DNA of 64,000 nucleotides from Halosimplex rubrum (GTDB taxonomy: Archaea; Halobacteriota; Halobacteria; Halobacteriales; Haloarculaceae): NCBI RefSeq assembly GCF_013415885.1, contig NZ_CP058910.1, forward strand, positions 3,348,001-3,412,000. Direction: 5' to 3'. A program made the position numbers and the translations under genes. Shown here one piece after another: positions 159 to 64,000 of this stretch. The notes under the pieces are model-generated. The model was not told where the DNA came from. It saw only the letters and a list, made by a program, of their open reading frames with translations, and did not search any database. Positions within the stretch are counted from its first letter, which is position 1. Each line of letters begins with the position of its first letter.

Positions 159-1064
159 TCAGTCGAACATCCCGGTCGACATGTAGCGCTCGCCGCTGTC
201 CCAGTAGACGGTGACGACGAGCGGGTCCGCCACGCCCTCCTCGACCAGGCGCTCGGCCACGCGCTTCGCGGCGAGGTTCGTCCCGCCGGAGGACTGCCCG
301 ACGAAGATCCCTTCCTCGCGGGCGAGGCGCCGACACTCCGCCTCGGCGGCGTCGAGGTCGACCGTCTCCACGCCGTCGAGCAACTCGCGGTCGAGGTTGT
401 CGCTGACGAACCCCGGCCCCATCCCCTGGAAGTCGTCGTCGCCGGCCTCGCCCGTCGAGAGGACGGCGTTGTCGGCGGGTTCGACGGCGACGACATCCAT
501 CTCGGGGAACGCCTCGCGCAAGCGACGGCCGATGCCGGAGATCGTGCCGCCGGTGCCGACGCCGGCGACGAACGCGTCGATCTCGCGGTCGCCCACCTGG
601 TCGAGGATCTCGGGACCGGTCGACCGGTAGTGCGCCTCGGGGTTGGCGCGGTTGTCGAACTGGCGGAGCTGGACGTACTCCCCTTCAGATTCGAGTTCGT
701 CGGCGCGGTCCTTGGCCGCGGAGATGTCGCCGTCGACGAGTTCGATCTCGGCGCCGTAGGCCCGCATGATCTGGCGCCGCTCGGGCGACTTCGAGGCGGG
801 CATGACCAGCGTCACGTCGTAGCCCTTCGCGGCGCCCACCATGGCCAGCCCGATGCCGGTGTTGCCGCTCGTGGGCTCGACGATGGTGTCGCCCTCGGCG
901 AGGGTACCGTCGCGCTCGGCGGCTTCGACCATCCCCTTCGCCGGTCGGTCCTTGGCCGACCCGCCCGGGTTGAACGATTCGACTTTCGCCGCGAGCGTCG
1001 CCCCCTCCGGGGCGTCGACCTCGACCAGCGGCGACCCGATGGTGTCCAGGATGCTCGAATTCAC
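159..1064 (-). CDS. cysK: Cysteine synthase (PLP-dependent, CysK/CysM family)
   Basis: 301 aa, the usual family length. The enzyme makes cysteine by replacing the activated hydroxyl of O-acetylserine (or O-phosphoserine in some archaea) with sulfide. The PLP lysine is expected at K38 in NPGGSAKDR, the PLP-binding TSGNTG loop is at about 65-70, and a glycine-rich GVGTGGT phosphate-binding loop follows near 165-175. The start is GTG at 1064; a TTAAAT box 25-30 bp upstream supports this exact leaderless start. Which activated serine it uses, O-acetyl or O-phospho, cannot be told here. Confidence 0.9.
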   Translation of the reverse strand: MNSSILDTIGSPLVEVDAPEGATLAAKVESFNPGGSAKDRPAKGMVEAAERDGTLAEGDTIVEPTSGNTGIGLAMVGAAKGYDVTLVMPASKSPERRQIMRAYGAEIELVDGDISAAKDRADELESEGEYVQLRQFDNRANPEAHYRSTGPEILDQVGDREIDAFVAGVGTGGTISGIGRRLREAFPEMDVVAVEPADNAVLSTGEAGDDDFQGMGPGFVSDNLDRELLDGVETVDLDAAEAECRRLAREEGIFVGQSSGGTNLAAKRVAERLVEEGVADPLVVTVYWDSGERYMSTGMFD

Positions 1065-1094: not shown

Positions 1095-1286
1095 GGCCCG
1101 TGACAGCGGCAGGGAGTGCGGCAGTCGGTGACGGTGCGAAATGGCGGTAGAGACGGGCCTAAATCGGCGTATTCCGGGGTTTCCTATGCAGGCCGAACGG
1201 ACTTTCGGCTACCGGGTCAACGGCAGAGTGAGCCGTTCGACGGGCGACCGTCGACGGTGACAGCACTGCGGTCTACCAGTTCAACT

Positions 1287-2342
1287 ATGGCTTACAACAA
1301 CCCCAACGACCGACGACAGCGGAGCCAGCACGACCAGCAGCAGTCCGGCGGCCAGCAAGGTCGCTCGACCGGCGGCCAGCACTCGGCCCGCTCCCAGCAG
1401 CGCACCCAACAGGGTCAGTTCACCGGCCAGCAGGGCCAGCAGCAGGGCCACACACAGCAGCACCAGCAGGGTCAGCCCAACCGGCAGAGCCATCGGGGAC
1501 AGCAGCACCGGCAGCAGGCCCAGCAGCAGAACTACCAGCAGCAGGGCCGACAGCAGCGACAGGGCCAACAGCACCAGCAACAGGGCCAGCACCAGCAGCG
1601 ACGGCAAGGCCAGCAGCACCAGCAGCACCCGCAGCAAGGCCAACAGCAGAACTACCGGCAGCAGGGTCAACAGCGGCAAGGCGGCCAGCAGTTCGGCGGC
1701 CAGCAGAGCCGGTCGATGGGTGGCCAGCACTCGGCCCACTCCCAGCAGCGCGACGCCCAGAGCCAGTTCACCGGCCACGGCGGTCAGCAGACTCAGCACC
1801 AGCAGGGCGGACGACAGCAACAGCGCGGGCAGCAGCAGGGCGGGCAACAGCAGTTCGGTGGCCACCAGGGCCGGTCCATCGGCGGCCAGCACTCGGCTCA
1901 CTCCCAGCAACGTGACACCCAGGGCCAGTTCAGCGGTCACGGCGGTCAGCAGCAGGGCCACACACAGCAGCGCCAGCAGAGCCAGCAGTACCGGGGCGGG
2001 CAACAACATCAGCAGGGCGGCCAGCAGTTCGGCGGCCAGCAGAACCGGTCCATCGGCGGCCAGCAGTCGGCTCACTCCCAGCAGCGCGGCTCCCACGGCC
2101 AGTTCACCGGTCACCAGCCCGGCCAGCAGTCGAACCAGCAGCGCCAGTCCGGCCAGCAGTCGAACCAGCAGCGCCAGTTCGGCCAGCAGCGCGGTAGCAG
2201 TCGGAGCGACAGCGACCAGAGCAGCGGCGGCCAGGGCAACACGCAGGGCCTGACGCAGGAGGCGCGCCGACGCGGCGGCGAGCGCTCCGCCCAGGGGCAG
2301 GAACGCAACGAGAGCGGCCAGTTCACCGGCGACAACAGCTAA
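1287..2342 (+). CDS. Glutamine-rich low-complexity protein with five GGQHSA..QFTG repeats
   Basis: 351 aa from ATG 1287; an in-frame upstream start at 1116 would add an unlike, normal-composition leader and is less likely. By hand count about 131 residues (37%) are Gln, with many Gly, Arg, Ser and His. There are only about 11 acidic residues and no Lys, Cys or Trp, opposite to a haloarchaeal acidic proteome. A 19-residue unit, consensus GGQHSAxSQQRxxxGQFTG, recurs at residues 29-47, 145-163, 199-217, 257-275 and 330-348, separated by Q/H/R-rich spacers. No signal peptide or membrane helix is seen. The last unit, after EARRRGGERSAQ, is the least Q-rich and faintly resembles KGG/Con-10-type stress motifs. 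It should be intrinsically disordered; the function is unknown. Copy number may vary by slippage on CAG-rich DNA. Confidence 0.8.
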   Translation: MAYNNPNDRRQRSQHDQQQSGGQQGRSTGGQHSARSQQRTQQGQFTGQQGQQQGHTQQHQQGQPNRQSHRGQQHRQQAQQQNYQQQGRQQRQGQQHQQQGQHQQRRQGQQHQQHPQQGQQQNYRQQGQQRQGGQQFGGQQSRSMGGQHSAHSQQRDAQSQFTGHGGQQTQHQQGGRQQQRGQQQGGQQQFGGHQGRSIGGQHSAHSQQRDTQGQFSGHGGQQQGHTQQRQQSQQYRGGQQHQQGGQQFGGQQNRSIGGQQSAHSQQRGSHGQFTGHQPGQQSNQQRQSGQQSNQQRQFGQQRGSSRSDSDQSSGGQGNTQGLTQEARRRGGERSAQGQERNESGQFTGDNS

Positions 2343-2459: not shown

Positions 2460-2900
2460 GTGTCCGGGGCCGTCACGGAGACCTACGCCGCGGCGCTCCA
2501 GCACGACATCGCCGACCTGTCCGAGGAGGCGACACGGGTCGGCGTCGTCCGCCGGCCGACCGGCTGGTTCGGGGCGCTCGTCGACGAGAACCGGCCCGAA
2601 CTCGGGCCGCCGGAGTCGCTGCTCTCCGAGACGAAAGACCGCCAGGAAGCCCTCCGGCGCCAGGGGCTGTGCGACGAGGAAGCGCACAACGCCGCCTGGG
2701 CGGAGACGGACTTCGAGACGCGCTATCGCGACTACCTCGCGACGGACGAGGCCGCTGGCGACGCGCTCGCCGACCTCGCCGAGCGGGTGCGAGCGGGAGA
2801 ATCCGTCGCGCTCGTCTGTTTCGAGGGTGACTCCAAGCGGTGTCACCGGCGGATCCTCGACGACGTGGTCCGCGAGCGGGCGGCGAGCCCCGCGGAGTGA
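2460..2900 (+). CDS. DUF488 family protein
   Basis: 146 aa from a GTG start; no better ATG lies upstream. The C-terminal half carries the family signature, a hydrophobic strand followed by CFEGDSKRCHRRIL (about residues 120-133), matching the VCxE..xxCHR motif of DUF488. The function of the family is not established; the conserved Cys and His suggest a metal or nucleotide site. It sits between the Q-rich protein and a thioredoxin-like gene on the same strand, with no overlap. Confidence 0.75.
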   Translation: MSGAVTETYAAALQHDIADLSEEATRVGVVRRPTGWFGALVDENRPELGPPESLLSETKDRQEALRRQGLCDEEAHNAAWAETDFETRYRDYLATDEAAGDALADLAERVRAGESVALVCFEGDSKRCHRRILDDVVRERAASPAE

Positions 2901-2984: not shown

Positions 2985-3371
2985 ATGTCACTGGAGACCA
3001 TGGACCCGAACCCGGTGTGGACCGAGGAGGCATACGCCGAGACCGTCGACGTGCTCGCGGCGCTGGGCGACGAGGTCACCTACAAGGTCTGGGGGGGCGA
3101 CTGGTGTATCGACTGCCGGTCGCAACTCCCGGATTTCGGCGCGGCGCTCGACGCCGCGGGCGTCCCCGACTACCGGATCGAGGAGTACGCCGTCGAGAAA
3201 GAAGACGACGGCACGAAGGTCGGCCCGAAGGTCGAGGAGTACGACATCGAGTACATCCCGACCGTCGTCGTCGAGCGCGACGGCGAGGAGGTCGCCCGCT
3301 TCGTCGAGGAGGAACCGGTCCCTATCGCCGTCTACCTCGGTCGCGAACTCGAACACCTGGCCTCCAGTTGA
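2985..3371 (+). CDS. Thioredoxin family protein
   Basis: 128 aa with a thioredoxin-fold layout. The redox motif is WCIDC (C41 and C44), with the cis-proline of YIPTVVV at about P92. No signal peptide is seen, so it is probably a cytosolic thiol-disulfide oxidoreductase. The CIDC active site differs from the classic CGPC and is common in archaeal and bacterial thioredoxin-like proteins of unassigned substrate. It converges on the DUF255 gene, which is another thioredoxin-fold protein. Confidence 0.85.
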   Translation: MSLETMDPNPVWTEEAYAETVDVLAALGDEVTYKVWGGDWCIDCRSQLPDFGAALDAAGVPDYRIEEYAVEKEDDGTKVGPKVEEYDIEYIPTVVVERDGEEVARFVEEEPVPIAVYLGRELEHLASS

Positions 3372-23314: not shown

Positions 23315-25111
23315 TCAGTCGCCGGGAGAGCCGGTCTCGCCGCCGGGTGATCCCGGTCGGGCGGTGTCGGAGACGTCGACGCCGGTGGGACCCGAGCGCT
23401 CGCGCCCCTGGCGCCGACGGGCGAGCGCCCCGTAGAGTTCGTCGGAGACTTCCTCGCGGAGCCGCTCGGCGGTCTCGGCGTCGATGTCGACGGCTTTGGC
23501 GTCCTGACCGGTGATGCTCTGGGAGCCGGCGGTGTCGACGGTGACCGTCGCCAGGTCGCGCCGGCGCTGGAAGACCGTCTGGGAGCTGAAGACTGTCTGG
23601 ACGCGGTGGTAGGGGACGACCTTCTGCCGGCGGACCCAGAACCCGTTGCGGGTGACGACGTGTTCCTCGCCGAGCGCGTAGCCGCGATTTTTCCACTTGT
23701 AGTGGGCGGCGACGGGGACGAGCGGTACGGCGGCCAGCGGGACGTACCAGTACAGTTGGAAGGTCGAGAGGACCGTCCCGCCGTACAGCAGCGCGACGAG
23801 GATCGCCAGGCCGATGGCGTAGCGGAAGCCGTAGCGCAGGCGCGCCCGTTTCGGCGGCCGTTCGAGGTGGTCGTCCTCGAACGCCTCCAGCGACCGGGCC
23901 AGCGAGACGACCCGGTCGCGCTCGGCGACCGGGATCGCCGACTGGGACCCGTTCGACTCCCCGCCCGTCGGCGTGTACCCGGCCGTCTCGATAGTCAGCG
24001 CGGCGTAGCCCAGCGCCCGCGCGAGGACGTTCTCCTCAAGGGTGAGCGTCTGGACCTTCGAGAGGGGGATCGTCCCGCGGAACTTCTGGAGGAGCCCGCG
24101 CTCGTAGCGCAGTTCCTCTTCCCCGCGGTCGAGGCGGAACCCGTAGTAGCGGGCGGCGTTGAGCACGCCCGAGACGAGCGCGAGCGCCGCGATGGCACCC
24201 AGCGCGGCCAGCGGCCCCAGGAACGCGCCGACCAGGCTGTCCAAACCGAAGCCGTACTCCCACCAGCTGTCCGGCTGGGCCATCGAGGCGGCCGACGGCG
24301 CGAAGATCGACGCGCCGAAGAAGAGGAACGAGGCGATCCGGAGGTCAACGGAGATCAGCGCGAGGACCCCGAGTTCGCGCTCGGTGATCGAGAACACCGT
24401 CTCGAAGCGCTCCTCGTCGGTCGCGGTCGTCTCGCCGTCTTCGGCCTTCGCGACGCGGCTCAGGCGGCTTATCTCCGACTGGAGCGCCTCGGCGTCGTCG
24501 ACGGTGACGTACCGGAGCTGGGCCTCCGTCCCGCCGCCGCCGGCCGTCTCCAGACCGACCTCGGCGATCCCGAGGGCGCGCTGGACGACGTTCTGGCTGA
24601 TGTCGACGTTCTGGATGCGACGCAGCGGGATCTCCCGCGTGCGCCGCGAGAGCACGCCCGACCTGATGTCGAACGTGTCCGCGGTGAGCTCGTACTCGAA
24701 GCGACGGTAGCGGGCGACGAAGTAGCCGACGAACGCCACGATGCCGAGGACGATCGCGACGATCGCGCCGATCGCCAGCAGGCTCTGCCCCGAGCCGAAC
24801 AGCGCCGACACGCCGCCCCCGCCGAACACGAAGATCGCGATGACGATGCTGATCCCCTGCTGGGCGATCTGGTAGGGGACCGTCAGCACGTTCAGTTGCT
24901 GTGGCCCCTCGATCCGCGGCGCCGCCGGCGAGGGGCCGGCCGCCTCGCTCTCCTCGGCGGCGGCCGCGCCGACCGTCTCGCGCTCCGTGCCGTCGGTCCG
25001 GGGATCGTCCGCTGGTGGGCCGTCCGCTGGTGGGCCGTCCGCTGGTGGGCCGTCGCCGGTCGGAGGGTCCTCGATCGGTGAGCCGTCGGTCGAGGGGTCG
25101 TCGTCGCTCAT
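23315..25111 (-). CDS. Membrane protein with three bacterial PH (bPH2/DUF304) domains, YdbT-like
   Basis: 598 aa. After a proline/acid-rich N terminus (to about 65) there are three repeats of membrane helix pair plus bPH2 domain. Each carries the family pattern of RRTREIPLRRIQNVD, RGTIPLSKVQTL and RRQKVVPYHRVQTV, followed by a GxATVxxxTAG-like strand. This matches Bacillus YdbT, which pairs with YdbS. Its upstream partner overlaps it by 4 nt (25108-25111). The function is unclear; the Bacillus pair is linked to resistance to an antimicrobial. Confidence 0.85.
   Translation of the reverse strand: MSDDDPSTDGSPIEDPPTGDGPPADGPPADGPPADDPRTDGTERETVGAAAAEESEAAGPSPAAPRIEGPQQLNVLTVPYQIAQQGISIVIAIFVFGGGGVSALFGSGQSLLAIGAIVAIVLGIVAFVGYFVARYRRFEYELTADTFDIRSGVLSRRTREIPLRRIQNVDISQNVVQRALGIAEVGLETAGGGGTEAQLRYVTVDDAEALQSEISRLSRVAKAEDGETTATDEERFETVFSITERELGVLALISVDLRIASFLFFGASIFAPSAASMAQPDSWWEYGFGLDSLVGAFLGPLAALGAIAALALVSGVLNAARYYGFRLDRGEEELRYERGLLQKFRGTIPLSKVQTLTLEENVLARALGYAALTIETAGYTPTGGESNGSQSAIPVAERDRVVSLARSLEAFEDDHLERPPKRARLRYGFRYAIGLAILVALLYGGTVLSTFQLYWYVPLAAVPLVPVAAHYKWKNRGYALGEEHVVTRNGFWVRRQKVVPYHRVQTVFSSQTVFQRRRDLATVTVDTAGSQSITGQDAKAVDIDAETAERLREEVSDELYGALARRRQGRERSGPTGVDVSDTARPGSPGGETGSPGD
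25006..25050. repeat. Three perfect 15-bp tandem repeats
   Basis: CGTCCGCTGGTGGGC occurs three times in a row and encodes the repeated PPADG unit in the N-terminal tail of the YdbT-like protein. Being in multiples of three it keeps frame. Confidence 0.85.
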
Positions 25112-61510: not shown

Positions 61511-64000
61511 TCAGTCGCGTCTCGTCAGGCCGACGAACGACAGCAGTCCGCCGCCCAGCAGGGCGAGCAGCGTCGCCGGTGCCGCGGTCGAGGGTTCGAC
61601 GAGCGAAGAGCCGGTCGAGCCGTTCGTCGCGCCGTCGGCGCCGGAGCCGCTCGCGGTGCCGACGGCGGTCGCGGTCCCGGTGTCCGTCGCGGCCCCGGTG
61701 TCCGTCGCGGTCCCGGTGTCCGCCGGAGTCGCCGTGGCCGTCGCGCCGTCGGGGGTGGTCGTGTCGCCGCTCGCGTCGTCCGCGCCAGACCCGTTGCCGG
61801 CGGTCTCGTTACCGGCGGTCTCGTTACCGGCGGTCTCGTTGCCGGGCTGGTTGATCTCGAGCGAGCGCGCCTGCCCCTTCTCGAGGGTGACCGTCGAGGG
61901 CGACTCGTCCTCGCCGAGGACCTGCCCCTCGGTCACGTCGACTGTTCCCCCGTAGCGGAACGTGTGGGACTCGTTGGTGGTCATGTCGGTCCTGAGTTGA
62001 TACGAGGAGTTCGCGGTGACGCTCGGCTCGGTGTAGCCCTCCTCGGTACCCCACTCGCCGTAGCCGGTCGTCGAGTAGGGGACCGTCATCGTGAACGTCC
62101 CGTCGTCGCCGGTCTCGGCCTGCTGGCGGTAGACGAACGTCGAGTTCGTCGAGGGGACCTGCATCTCGACGGCCGCCGTGACCGTCGCGTTCGCGGGCCC
62201 TTCACCCTCGATAGTCCCGCCGGGGACGCGCTCGAACGACTTCACCCAGTTCGAACTGCTGGGCTGGAGCGCGCCGAGCACACCGGGCTGGCGCAGCGAG
62301 GTCTGGAAGGCGCCCTGAGCCGTCTTCCGGAGGCCGAGCTGGTACCGCTGCGATTCGAGGGAGCTGTTGTCGCTCCCGTGGACCATCCGGTAGTGCTCCA
62401 GTGCGGGCACGCGCTCGCTCGGGAACTGCCCGACGCCGCCGATCTTCGAGGTCGGGTCGTTCTCGACGTACTCGCGGGCCTCGGCCATCGTGTCGAAGTT
62501 GATCGTCCCGTTGCTCATCCGGATCTGCCCCTGCCCGCTCTGTGCGTCCTGTAGCTCCCAGTCGACGACGATGGGAGTCGGCTCCACGGCGCTCCCGTGG
62601 AAGTTGTACAGGCGGACGGCCGTGGAGTTGTAGTACTTCTGATGCTGCAGTCGGAAGGTCTGGTAGGAGCCCTGCTGGCCGGTCTGGTAGTAGATCCAGT
62701 CCCCTCTTTCGGTGTAGTACTCCCCTTGAGAGATGTTCCCGTCGGAGTAGAACTGGAAGGGCGCGAAGTACTTGCCGCCGAGCCGGAGCGACCCGCCGTT
62801 AGGCCGGAAGTAGGACTGAGCGGTCTCGGTCATCTTCCAGTCGACCATGACGTAGCGGGTCTCGGCGTCATCCTCGCTCACGTCGTTCATGACCTCGTTG
62901 GCGGCCGACTCGTTGGTCGACAGCAGGAAGTTCGCGGCCTGATCGGCGCCCTGCTGGAAGGGGTTCGCGACCGGTATCCGCTCGCCCATGACGGTGATGT
63001 AGTGGCCGTAGTCCCACCACGACATCACGCCGTAGTACCCGTCGGGATAGTCGAAGTCGTCGGTCCGTTCGAAGGTGCCGTAGTAGGGGACGGCGTCGGC
63101 GTTGTCCGCGCCGCCGTACGTGCCTTCATCCGGCGTGTTGCCCTCCATCCAGCCGAGCGTACCGTTCCAGGCGACAGAGCCCTGGCCGGCGCCCCCGCTC
63201 CCGCTCGTCGCCTGCATCGACACCGCCGCCGGATACACCAGCGGCGCGAACAGGACGAGGACGATCGCGACGATAGACAGTATCTGATAGGTTTCGATGT
63301 CGGTATCAGGTCGAGAGATGCCGGAGAACCTGGCGAGCTGTCCGATGACCAGCGCGGTCATCACGGCGACGGTGATCGAGAAGTAGTAGTCGAACCGGCG
63401 CTGCGTGAGCGTCGCCAGCAGCATGAACACCGTCCAGACGGCCAGCAGAGACCACTCGGCGTCAGGCCGGTCGTAGAAGTGCCGCACCGCGACGAACGCG
63501 ACGCCCAGGAGCGCGATGAAGAGCGTGAAGCCGTACTCGGGGAACAGGTTCCCGAACGGCATCGGCTGGGCCTCGGCGACGGTGCCCGCGGTGTCGGTCA
63601 CCGTGAGGCCGACGACGCGCGTCGTCTGGTTGACGAAGAATCCCCAGATGTCCGGAAGCGCCAGCGCCATCGCGACGGCGATACCCAGGAGGATACCGCC
63701 GACCGCGAGCGGGTACTGATAGTTCGGGAGGCCGCGAGATTCCCACTCCCGGGCGAACCAGGCGAGGAAGACGCAGCCGGCTGCGACGCCGAACGCCAGC
63801 ATCGGCTGGACCAGATTGTAGCTCGTCGCGCTGAGCGCGATCTCTTCCATCGCGGCGAGACTCAGGACGCCGGCCGTCGAGAGCGTGACCGCGCCCGCGA
63901 TGGCGACGTGTTCCGGGCTCTCGCCGTGGGCATACTCCGAAGCGAGTTCGATCGTGAAGTAGACGCCGAGGATGCCGAGGAGGAAGACGCCCGGCGCCCA
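61511..64000 (-). CDS. aglB: Oligosaccharyltransferase AglB (STT3 family), N terminus outside window
   Basis: The frame is open from 61511 to the right edge (830 codons shown, no in-frame stop; an internal Met at 63850 is not the true start). Helices of the membrane half are at 63250-63990, and the catalytic WWDYG motif lies at 63005-63019. A large soluble domain follows. The tail has three GNETA units (N-E-T sequons), a Thr/Ala/Asp-rich linker and a last hydrophobic helix ending RRD. AglB transfers lipid-linked glycan to Asn of N-x-S/T on S-layer and other surface proteins. The Asp-rich metal motif of the first loop lies outside. Confidence 0.92.
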   Translation of the reverse strand, partial: WAPGVFLLGILGVYFTIELASEYAHGESPEHVAIAGAVTLSTAGVLSLAAMEEIALSATSYNLVQPMLAFGVAAGCVFLAWFAREWESRGLPNYQYPLAVGGILLGIAVAMALALPDIWGFFVNQTTRVVGLTVTDTAGTVAEAQPMPFGNLFPEYGFTLFIALLGVAFVAVRHFYDRPDAEWSLLAVWTVFMLLATLTQRRFDYYFSITVAVMTALVIGQLARFSGISRPDTDIETYQILSIVAIVLVLFAPLVYPAAVSMQATSGSGGAGQGSVAWNGTLGWMEGNTPDEGTYGGADNADAVPYYGTFERTDDFDYPDGYYGVMSWWDYGHYITVMGERIPVANPFQQGADQAANFLLSTNESAANEVMNDVSEDDAETRYVMVDWKMTETAQSYFRPNGGSLRLGGKYFAPFQFYSDGNISQGEYYTERGDWIYYQTGQQGSYQTFRLQHQKYYNSTAVRLYNFHGSAVEPTPIVVDWELQDAQSGQGQIRMSNGTINFDTMAEAREYVENDPTSKIGGVGQFPSERVPALEHYRMVHGSDNSSLESQRYQLGLRKTAQGAFQTSLRQPGVLGALQPSSSNWVKSFERVPGGTIEGEGPANATVTAAVEMQVPSTNSTFVYRQQAETGDDGTFTMTVPYSTTGYGEWGTEEGYTEPSVTANSSYQLRTDMTTNESHTFRYGGTVDVTEGQVLGEDESPSTVTLEKGQARSLEINQPGNETAGNETAGNETAGNGSGADDASGDTTTPDGATATATPADTGTATDTGAATDTGTATAVGTASGSGADGATNGSTGSSLVEPSTAAPATLLALLGGGLLSFVGLTRRD
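61793..61837. repeat. Three 15-bp tandem repeats encoding GNETA units of AglB
   Basis: The unit GTTRCCGGCGGTCTC (R = G or A) repeats three times and continues into a partial copy. On the minus strand it encodes repeated GNETA, each an N-x-T glycosylation sequon. Confidence 0.8.

Follow-up and report, generated by a model that had tools for sequence, protein, structure and literature searches.

A glutamine-rich repeat protein family with a conserved terminal mini-domain in haloarchaea

Introduction

Haloarchaeal cytosolic proteins are thought to require acidic surfaces for solubility in molar KCl. The KGG proteins (PF10685; YciG and YmdF of E. coli, GsiB of B. subtilis) are small, Gly-rich and hydrophilic, with an (R/K)GGxxS core that recurs along the chain. 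The gene for one of these stress proteins, yciG, adjoins the DUF892 genes yciF and yciE in E. coli K-12. Hydrophilins are defined by a Gly content above 6% and a mean hydrophilicity above 1, while prion-like sequences are recognized by 30 or more Q/N in 80 residues; archaeal prion-like domains were reportedly surveyed in 2021. A Q-rich, His-containing segment of yeast SNF5, the QLC, acts in pH sensing (PMC8890752). The 'LEA/KGG-like' proteins of Methanocella are archaeal, very hydrophilic and disordered, and are KGG-like by annotation but failed the domain test; the same study cautions against LEA or KGG labels for such archaeal hydrophilic proteins absent functional tests (PMC12904285). Here we examine a glutamine-rich repeat protein encoded in a 64,000-nucleotide stretch of the Halosimplex rubrum genome (the window), for which an original prediction had been made from the sequence.

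Results

A basic, glutamine-rich protein among acidic neighbors. The protein contains 131 Gln in 351 residues (37.3%), in agreement with an earlier hand count of about 37%, together with 18.5% Gly, 9.7% Arg, 9.1% Ser, 6.6% His and 3.4% Asn. Lys, Cys and Trp are absent, as had been noted before, and so is Val; the claimed near lack of acidic residues is also correct (Asp plus Glu, 11 residues, 3.1%). With a pI of about 12 and a GRAVY of -2.2, the protein is the neutral-to-basic chain amid acidic proteins that had been expected, as the flanking genes (n = 17) have a median pI of 4.4 and a mean Gln content of 2%. A GTG at 1116 opens a longer frame mechanically; the Halosimplex orthologues share the ATG start at 1287. 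An antisense 521-aa ORF overlapping the gene was dismissed as a composition artefact. Features of the locus are collected in Table 1.

Table 1. Coordinates of the Q-rich gene, its parts and its neighbors in the window
Feature	Position	Strand	Remarks
PALP-family (cysteine synthase-type) gene, divergent neighbor	159..1064	-	Syntenic in Halosimplex
Conserved upstream block, candidate promoter/regulatory element	1178..1201	+	Between cysK and the Q-rich gene
Q-rich repeat protein gene, 351 aa	1287..2342	+	ATG start, TAA stop; orthologues
Unit 1 (aa 29-47) GGQHSARSQQRTQQGQFTG	1371..1427	+	
Longest Q-rich linker, units 1-2	1428..1718	+	QQ-G/R/H/S pattern, no Q run >3
Unit 2 (aa 145-163) GGQHSAHSQQRDAQSQFTG	1719..1775	+	
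Unit 3 (aa 199-217) GGQHSAHSQQRDTQGQFSG	1881..1937	+	
Unit 4 (aa 257-275) GGQQSAHSQQRGSHGQFTG	2055..2111	+	
Terminal mini-domain (aa 321-348) GLTQEARRRGGERSAQGQERNESGQFTG	2247..2330	+	Most conserved part; predicted short helix and hairpin
DUF488, downstream neighbor	2460..2900	+	Syntenic in Halosimplex; lost with the Q-rich gene in G002
Thioredoxin-like gene	2985..3371	+	Syntenic in Halosimplex and retained in G002; weak Pfam match to thioredoxin (E 0.005)

Units and linkers. The five proposed 19-residue units, beginning at residues 29, 145, 199, 257 and 330, were recovered and share 10 to 16 of 19 residues pairwise. When the composition was shuffled 200 times, the best ungapped match between 19-mers had a mean of 11.4 and a maximum of 14, and the best self-match in the protein (16) exceeded every one of them. 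TRF detects an array with a period of about 162/174 nt at the gene. Elsewhere in the window there are two near-perfect 15-nt tandem arrays, at 25006-25054 (3.3 copies) and 61792-61845 (3.6 copies). The last unit reaches further N-terminally than its 19 residues, giving GLTQEARRRGGERSAQGQERNESGQFTG, and its 28-residue consensus, GLTxEaRxRGGkHSAxxQERDExGqFtG, is the most conserved of the units. Linkers vary between orthologues in length and sequence and maintain their composition. All Phe residues lie within GQF(T/S)G, SQFTG, QQFGG or RQFGQ contexts.

Conservation and selection in Halosimplex. The gene was found in seven of eight sampled Halosimplex genomes. Six copies, on long contigs, occupy the same site, divergent from a cysteine-synthase-type gene (cysK), with DUF488 downstream (except in G007, which has a DUF488 fragment only) and the thioredoxin-like gene beyond; the seventh (G001) is a fragment at a contig end. 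In the complete genome G002, the Q-rich gene and DUF488 are cleanly missing while the promoter side of cysK and the thioredoxin-like gene are both intact, and the gene is therefore dispensable. The original prediction had held that absence from close strains, with no transcription, would count against it; one genome in eight does lack the gene, and the other seven carry it. The open frame and the order of parts are preserved across all Halosimplex copies. Codon comparison gave a dN/dS of 0.22 for the terminal unit and, for internal units, of 0.13 within genomes and 0.19 between genomes, and these values indicate purifying selection on the units at the protein level. The DNA upstream of the gene is poorly conserved apart from one block. 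This contains a 14-nt element, TGCARGCCGAACRG (1187-1200), which was found in each of the six loci that retain their upstream DNA, sits roughly 85-100 nt ahead of the start codon and has no other exact copy in the H. rubrum genome. On this pattern, the block at 1178-1201 is possibly a promoter or regulator site. The Q-rich ORF is a real gene.

A scattered family in the Halobacteriales. Strong matches to the terminal unit (E below 1e-6) occurred in 12 of 392 Halobacteriales genomes (about 3%), in a scattered distribution. Weak order-wide matches (E 0.001-0.1) were set aside, as those inspected resembled wrong-frame matches in high-GC DNA. The H. rubrum protein has the two features by which the family is defined, a C-terminal GLTxExRxRGGxxSAxxQERDxxGxF and more than 30% Q. 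Family proteins are 296-573 aa long with 24-43% Gln (mostly 34-43%); their pI is near 12 in most cases, and one member is acidic. Repeat number, a comparison proposed earlier, differs between species, with one to seven unit matches per protein by pattern count. Homologues mostly have no common gene neighbors except within Halosimplex and one other genus; in the other genomes examined, the neighbors are unrelated genes and context gave no function. No description of the family was found in the literature covered, which did not extend to subscription journals, and no Pfam, NCBIfam or PHROG family matched. We conclude that these Q-rich proteins form a genuine family that had not been named before.

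A second module (RHSQQFRQ...RDESGQF) occurs in two species of Halosimplex, in a plasmid protein of Halomicrobium urmianum and in an isolate of the Haloarculaceae, a distribution that suggests module exchange. An alternative module, RHSQQFRQEHRQIAQQLPRDESGQF(V/M)S, is seen in Q-rich genes L051, L054, L059 and L060 (Halosimplex, the Halomicrobium plasmid and the Haloarculaceae isolate) and may form a helix plus RDxxGQF hairpin as in the unit. The plasmid gene is a second Q-rich homologue in H. urmianum (L059:9285-10430; G281:C2, NZ_CP084091.1), which ends not in the usual terminal unit but in a charged, unrelated tail, PSDEEIDKMEEIQVQQGDYDD. Another Q-rich low-complexity protein (L063:15166-16581, G349) has a 472-aa frame, no unit and no Pfam match. 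Whole-protein searches of genome contigs and plasmids gave no match, presumably because of low-complexity masking, while the unit alignment succeeded. Among plasmids, the only sound match was the second copy in H. urmianum; enterobacterial plasmid matches were 40 nt only, mostly in SSB genes, and were rejected. A virus or mobile-element origin was also rejected, as the unit profile matched no viral contig, PHROGs gave none and the single-unit protein found no match in phages.

The unit beyond haloarchaea. The profile search proposed earlier extended the unit to other phyla. The terminal-unit alignment retrieved one Phycisphaerales MAG and one Pacearchaeota MAG, the latter with a 58-aa gene product consisting of a single unit, NLSEEDRRRGGQHSAQSQERDEQGHFAGKG, in a stretch with a GC content of 41%. 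Another genome from the Pacearchaeota phylum encodes an independent one-unit protein, NLTHHDRVIGGQNSAAEQERDERGRFAGKN; the two (L087 and L113) are 50-60 aa long. The Phycisphaerales genome encodes a 128-aa G/N/S-rich protein with the unit (L085) and a protein (L101) in which a DUF892 (YciE-type ferritin-like) domain (Pfam E 9e-53) precedes a tail of repeated RSRGGYxSSRMQERxEYGQF, a fusion known from this one MAG. The frame in L101 (a locus at G609:C2:109000-119000) lies on the minus strand and is 574 aa long, and its long disordered tail carries several units and a closing GRSLGGQHS motif. An HMM built from haloarchaeal sequences only matched L087 (8e-14), L101 (1.5e-11), L113 (3e-10) and L085 (3e-5), and a reciprocal HMM of the three short forms matched the H. 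rubrum protein at 1e-17, with E-values computed on a small local set and scaled as for 10,000 sequences; in that set, reversed sequences and YciG were below significance. The unit is rare in these groups, with 1 of 198 genomes in the Phycisphaerales class sample and 2 of 279 in the Pacearchaeota phylum sample. Low GC near the Pacearchaeota genes and bacterial-type neighbors on L085 and L101 argue against haloarchaeal contamination. Judged from these alignments, the 28-residue unit is not restricted to haloarchaea, which is new here. A relative with a well-folded domain and known function had been named as evidence that would go against the original prediction: L101, in which the unit follows a folded DUF892 domain, matches this in its first half, the folded domain. 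The guess that the last, less Q-rich unit is the ancestral one fits both its top conservation and its solo occurrence in other phyla.

Predicted structure and glutamine pattern. In an AF2 model built with 13 homologues, pLDDT was below 50 for 315 of 351 residues, the terminal unit excepted, so the disorder claimed earlier holds as a prediction. When the terminal 53 residues were modeled with 15 sequences, AF2 predicted a helix over 26-34 and a hairpin at RNESGQF, at a confidence that was modest overall (mean pLDDT 63.9; 82 over the hairpin block). No relative in the PDB was found by sequence or, using Foldseek, by fold. The longest Q run is 3 in this protein and 3-5 across the family. Across 17 proteins there are 19 runs of at least four Q, where shuffling leads one to expect about 73, and in most members QQ doublets are roughly twice as frequent as after shuffling. 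This depletion argues against both a polyQ amyloid and simple CAG slippage; the latter was rejected as the sole cause of Q-richness, the longest pure CAG run in the gene also being 3. Of the earlier label 'prion-like', the compositional part stands, as the densest 80-residue stretch holds up to 47 Q/N, well within the prion-like range; the polyQ reading does not, since long uninterrupted Q/N tracts are absent.

Discussion

Our results are best explained, in a tentative reading that we prefer to the others, by a disordered, multivalent cytoplasmic scaffold in which the units act as stickers, most likely in stress. The mini-domains of about 20-28 residues (a short helix plus R(D/N)xxGQF hairpin with an RGG/GGxHS core) would be low-affinity stickers, and the Q-rich, charge-poor QQ-G/R/H linkers would be soluble spacers. 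Stickers on one chain may bind each other or a common partner (i.e., a protein, RNA/DNA or a ferritin-like protein), which would lead to reversible assemblies or to protection of clients, with dilution, drying or starvation as the most likely settings. While the disorder and the mini-fold are model predictions, we infer the sticker and spacer behavior, the stress role and the partners. A cytoplasmic location is likewise probable, as the protein lacks a hydrophobic stretch that could form a signal peptide. The stress connection is an indirect one, drawn by analogy from the DUF892 fusion in L101, the yciG-yciF-yciE cluster and the KGG-like core. Counting against a scaffold are the absence of the gene from G002 and from most haloarchaea, the modest AF2 confidence, the lack of a solved relative and the unshared neighbors. 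A broader proposal, which we regard as possible and rather doubtful, is that the unit is an unrecognized mini-domain of two archaeal phyla and one bacterium, serving as an assembly or stress-targeting sticker: it occurs solo in Pacearchaeota micro-proteins, in tandem behind DUF892 in Phycisphaerales, and beaded on Q-rich spacers in haloarchaea, where it would build reversible condensates in a cytoplasm near salt saturation.

The closest rival, which we consider unlikely, is a plain monomeric stress hydrophilin of the LEA/GsiB/YciG kind, which would shield proteins or hold water when cells dry out or suffer osmotic shock and would not assemble specifically, its units being KGG-like remnants. 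The Gly content of 18.5% and the GRAVY of -2.2 fit the compositional definition, the core of the unit resembles the RKGGQHS of YciG, and in L101 the unit stands behind DUF892, a domain encoded beside yciG in E. coli. However, an hhalign comparison of the unit with YciG gave a probability of 3.8% over 16 columns, with no alignment beyond the GG core, and the protein matched no Pfam family even at E 10, LEA profiles included; neither it nor its units matched the KGG profile PF10685 at that threshold. This profile found no member in the H. rubrum genome, with positive controls in E. coli, B. subtilis and Caulobacter, or in 195 Halobacteriales, again with positive controls. These profile tests led us to reject KGG/LEA membership. 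Purifying selection on defined units also suggests specific contacts over bulk hydrophilicity alone.

Binding of DNA or RNA by an Arg/His/Gly-rich chain, as in RGG-type proteins, is improbable. It would draw on the surplus of basic residues (34 Arg and 23 His, with 11 acidic ones), the pI of about 12 and the RGG core of the terminal unit, but there is no recognizable binding domain, the protein has only two RGG triplets, which are not clustered, and the molar salt of the haloarchaeal cytoplasm weakens purely electrostatic binding. Quite improbable, too, is a low-value repetitive gene that was retained by chance and spread by recombination: while the patchy distribution, the clean absence from G002 and the modules common to Halosimplex and a Halomicrobium plasmid are in keeping with this, the dN/dS of the internal units, like that of the terminal one, is well below 1, an upstream element is conserved, and the frame and part order are preserved in all Halosimplex copies. 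That the Q-rich region drives a prion or amyloid switch is very unlikely indeed, for although the classical prion-like class is made up of Q/N-rich domains and the Q/N density is high, long Q runs are depleted, Asn is scarce and Arg interrupts the chain.

A conserved family of strongly basic, Q-rich proteins offers a natural test of disordered-protein behavior, and of whether such proteins condense, in a molar-KCl cytoplasm. A mini-domain found in separate phyla also provides a handle for functional work on small proteins that annotation pipelines call hypothetical.

Among known systems, the Methanocella proteins are likened to this family by general properties, and the caution on LEA and KGG labels (PMC12904285) applies equally to the Halosimplex protein. 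Like the SNF5 QLC (PMC8890752), the Q-rich protein has interspersed His and predicted disorder; unlike it, the protein is not attached to a folded complex, has a repeated mini-domain and avoids polyQ tracts. The DUF892 proteins of the YciE-YciF type (PF05974) are related through the Phycisphaerales protein, the tail of which has several units, whereas the haloarchaeal protein has no DUF892. With the KGG proteins, the unit shares small size, Gly-richness, hydrophilicity and the repeated (R/K)GGxxS core, and each is associated with DUF892, by gene adjacency in E. coli and by fusion in one bacterium. In contrast to KGG proteins, the unit adds a QERDExGxF hairpin, and the haloarchaeal forms are mostly 300-430 aa long with Q-rich linkers; the family looks like mini-domain beads on a soluble Q-rich string.
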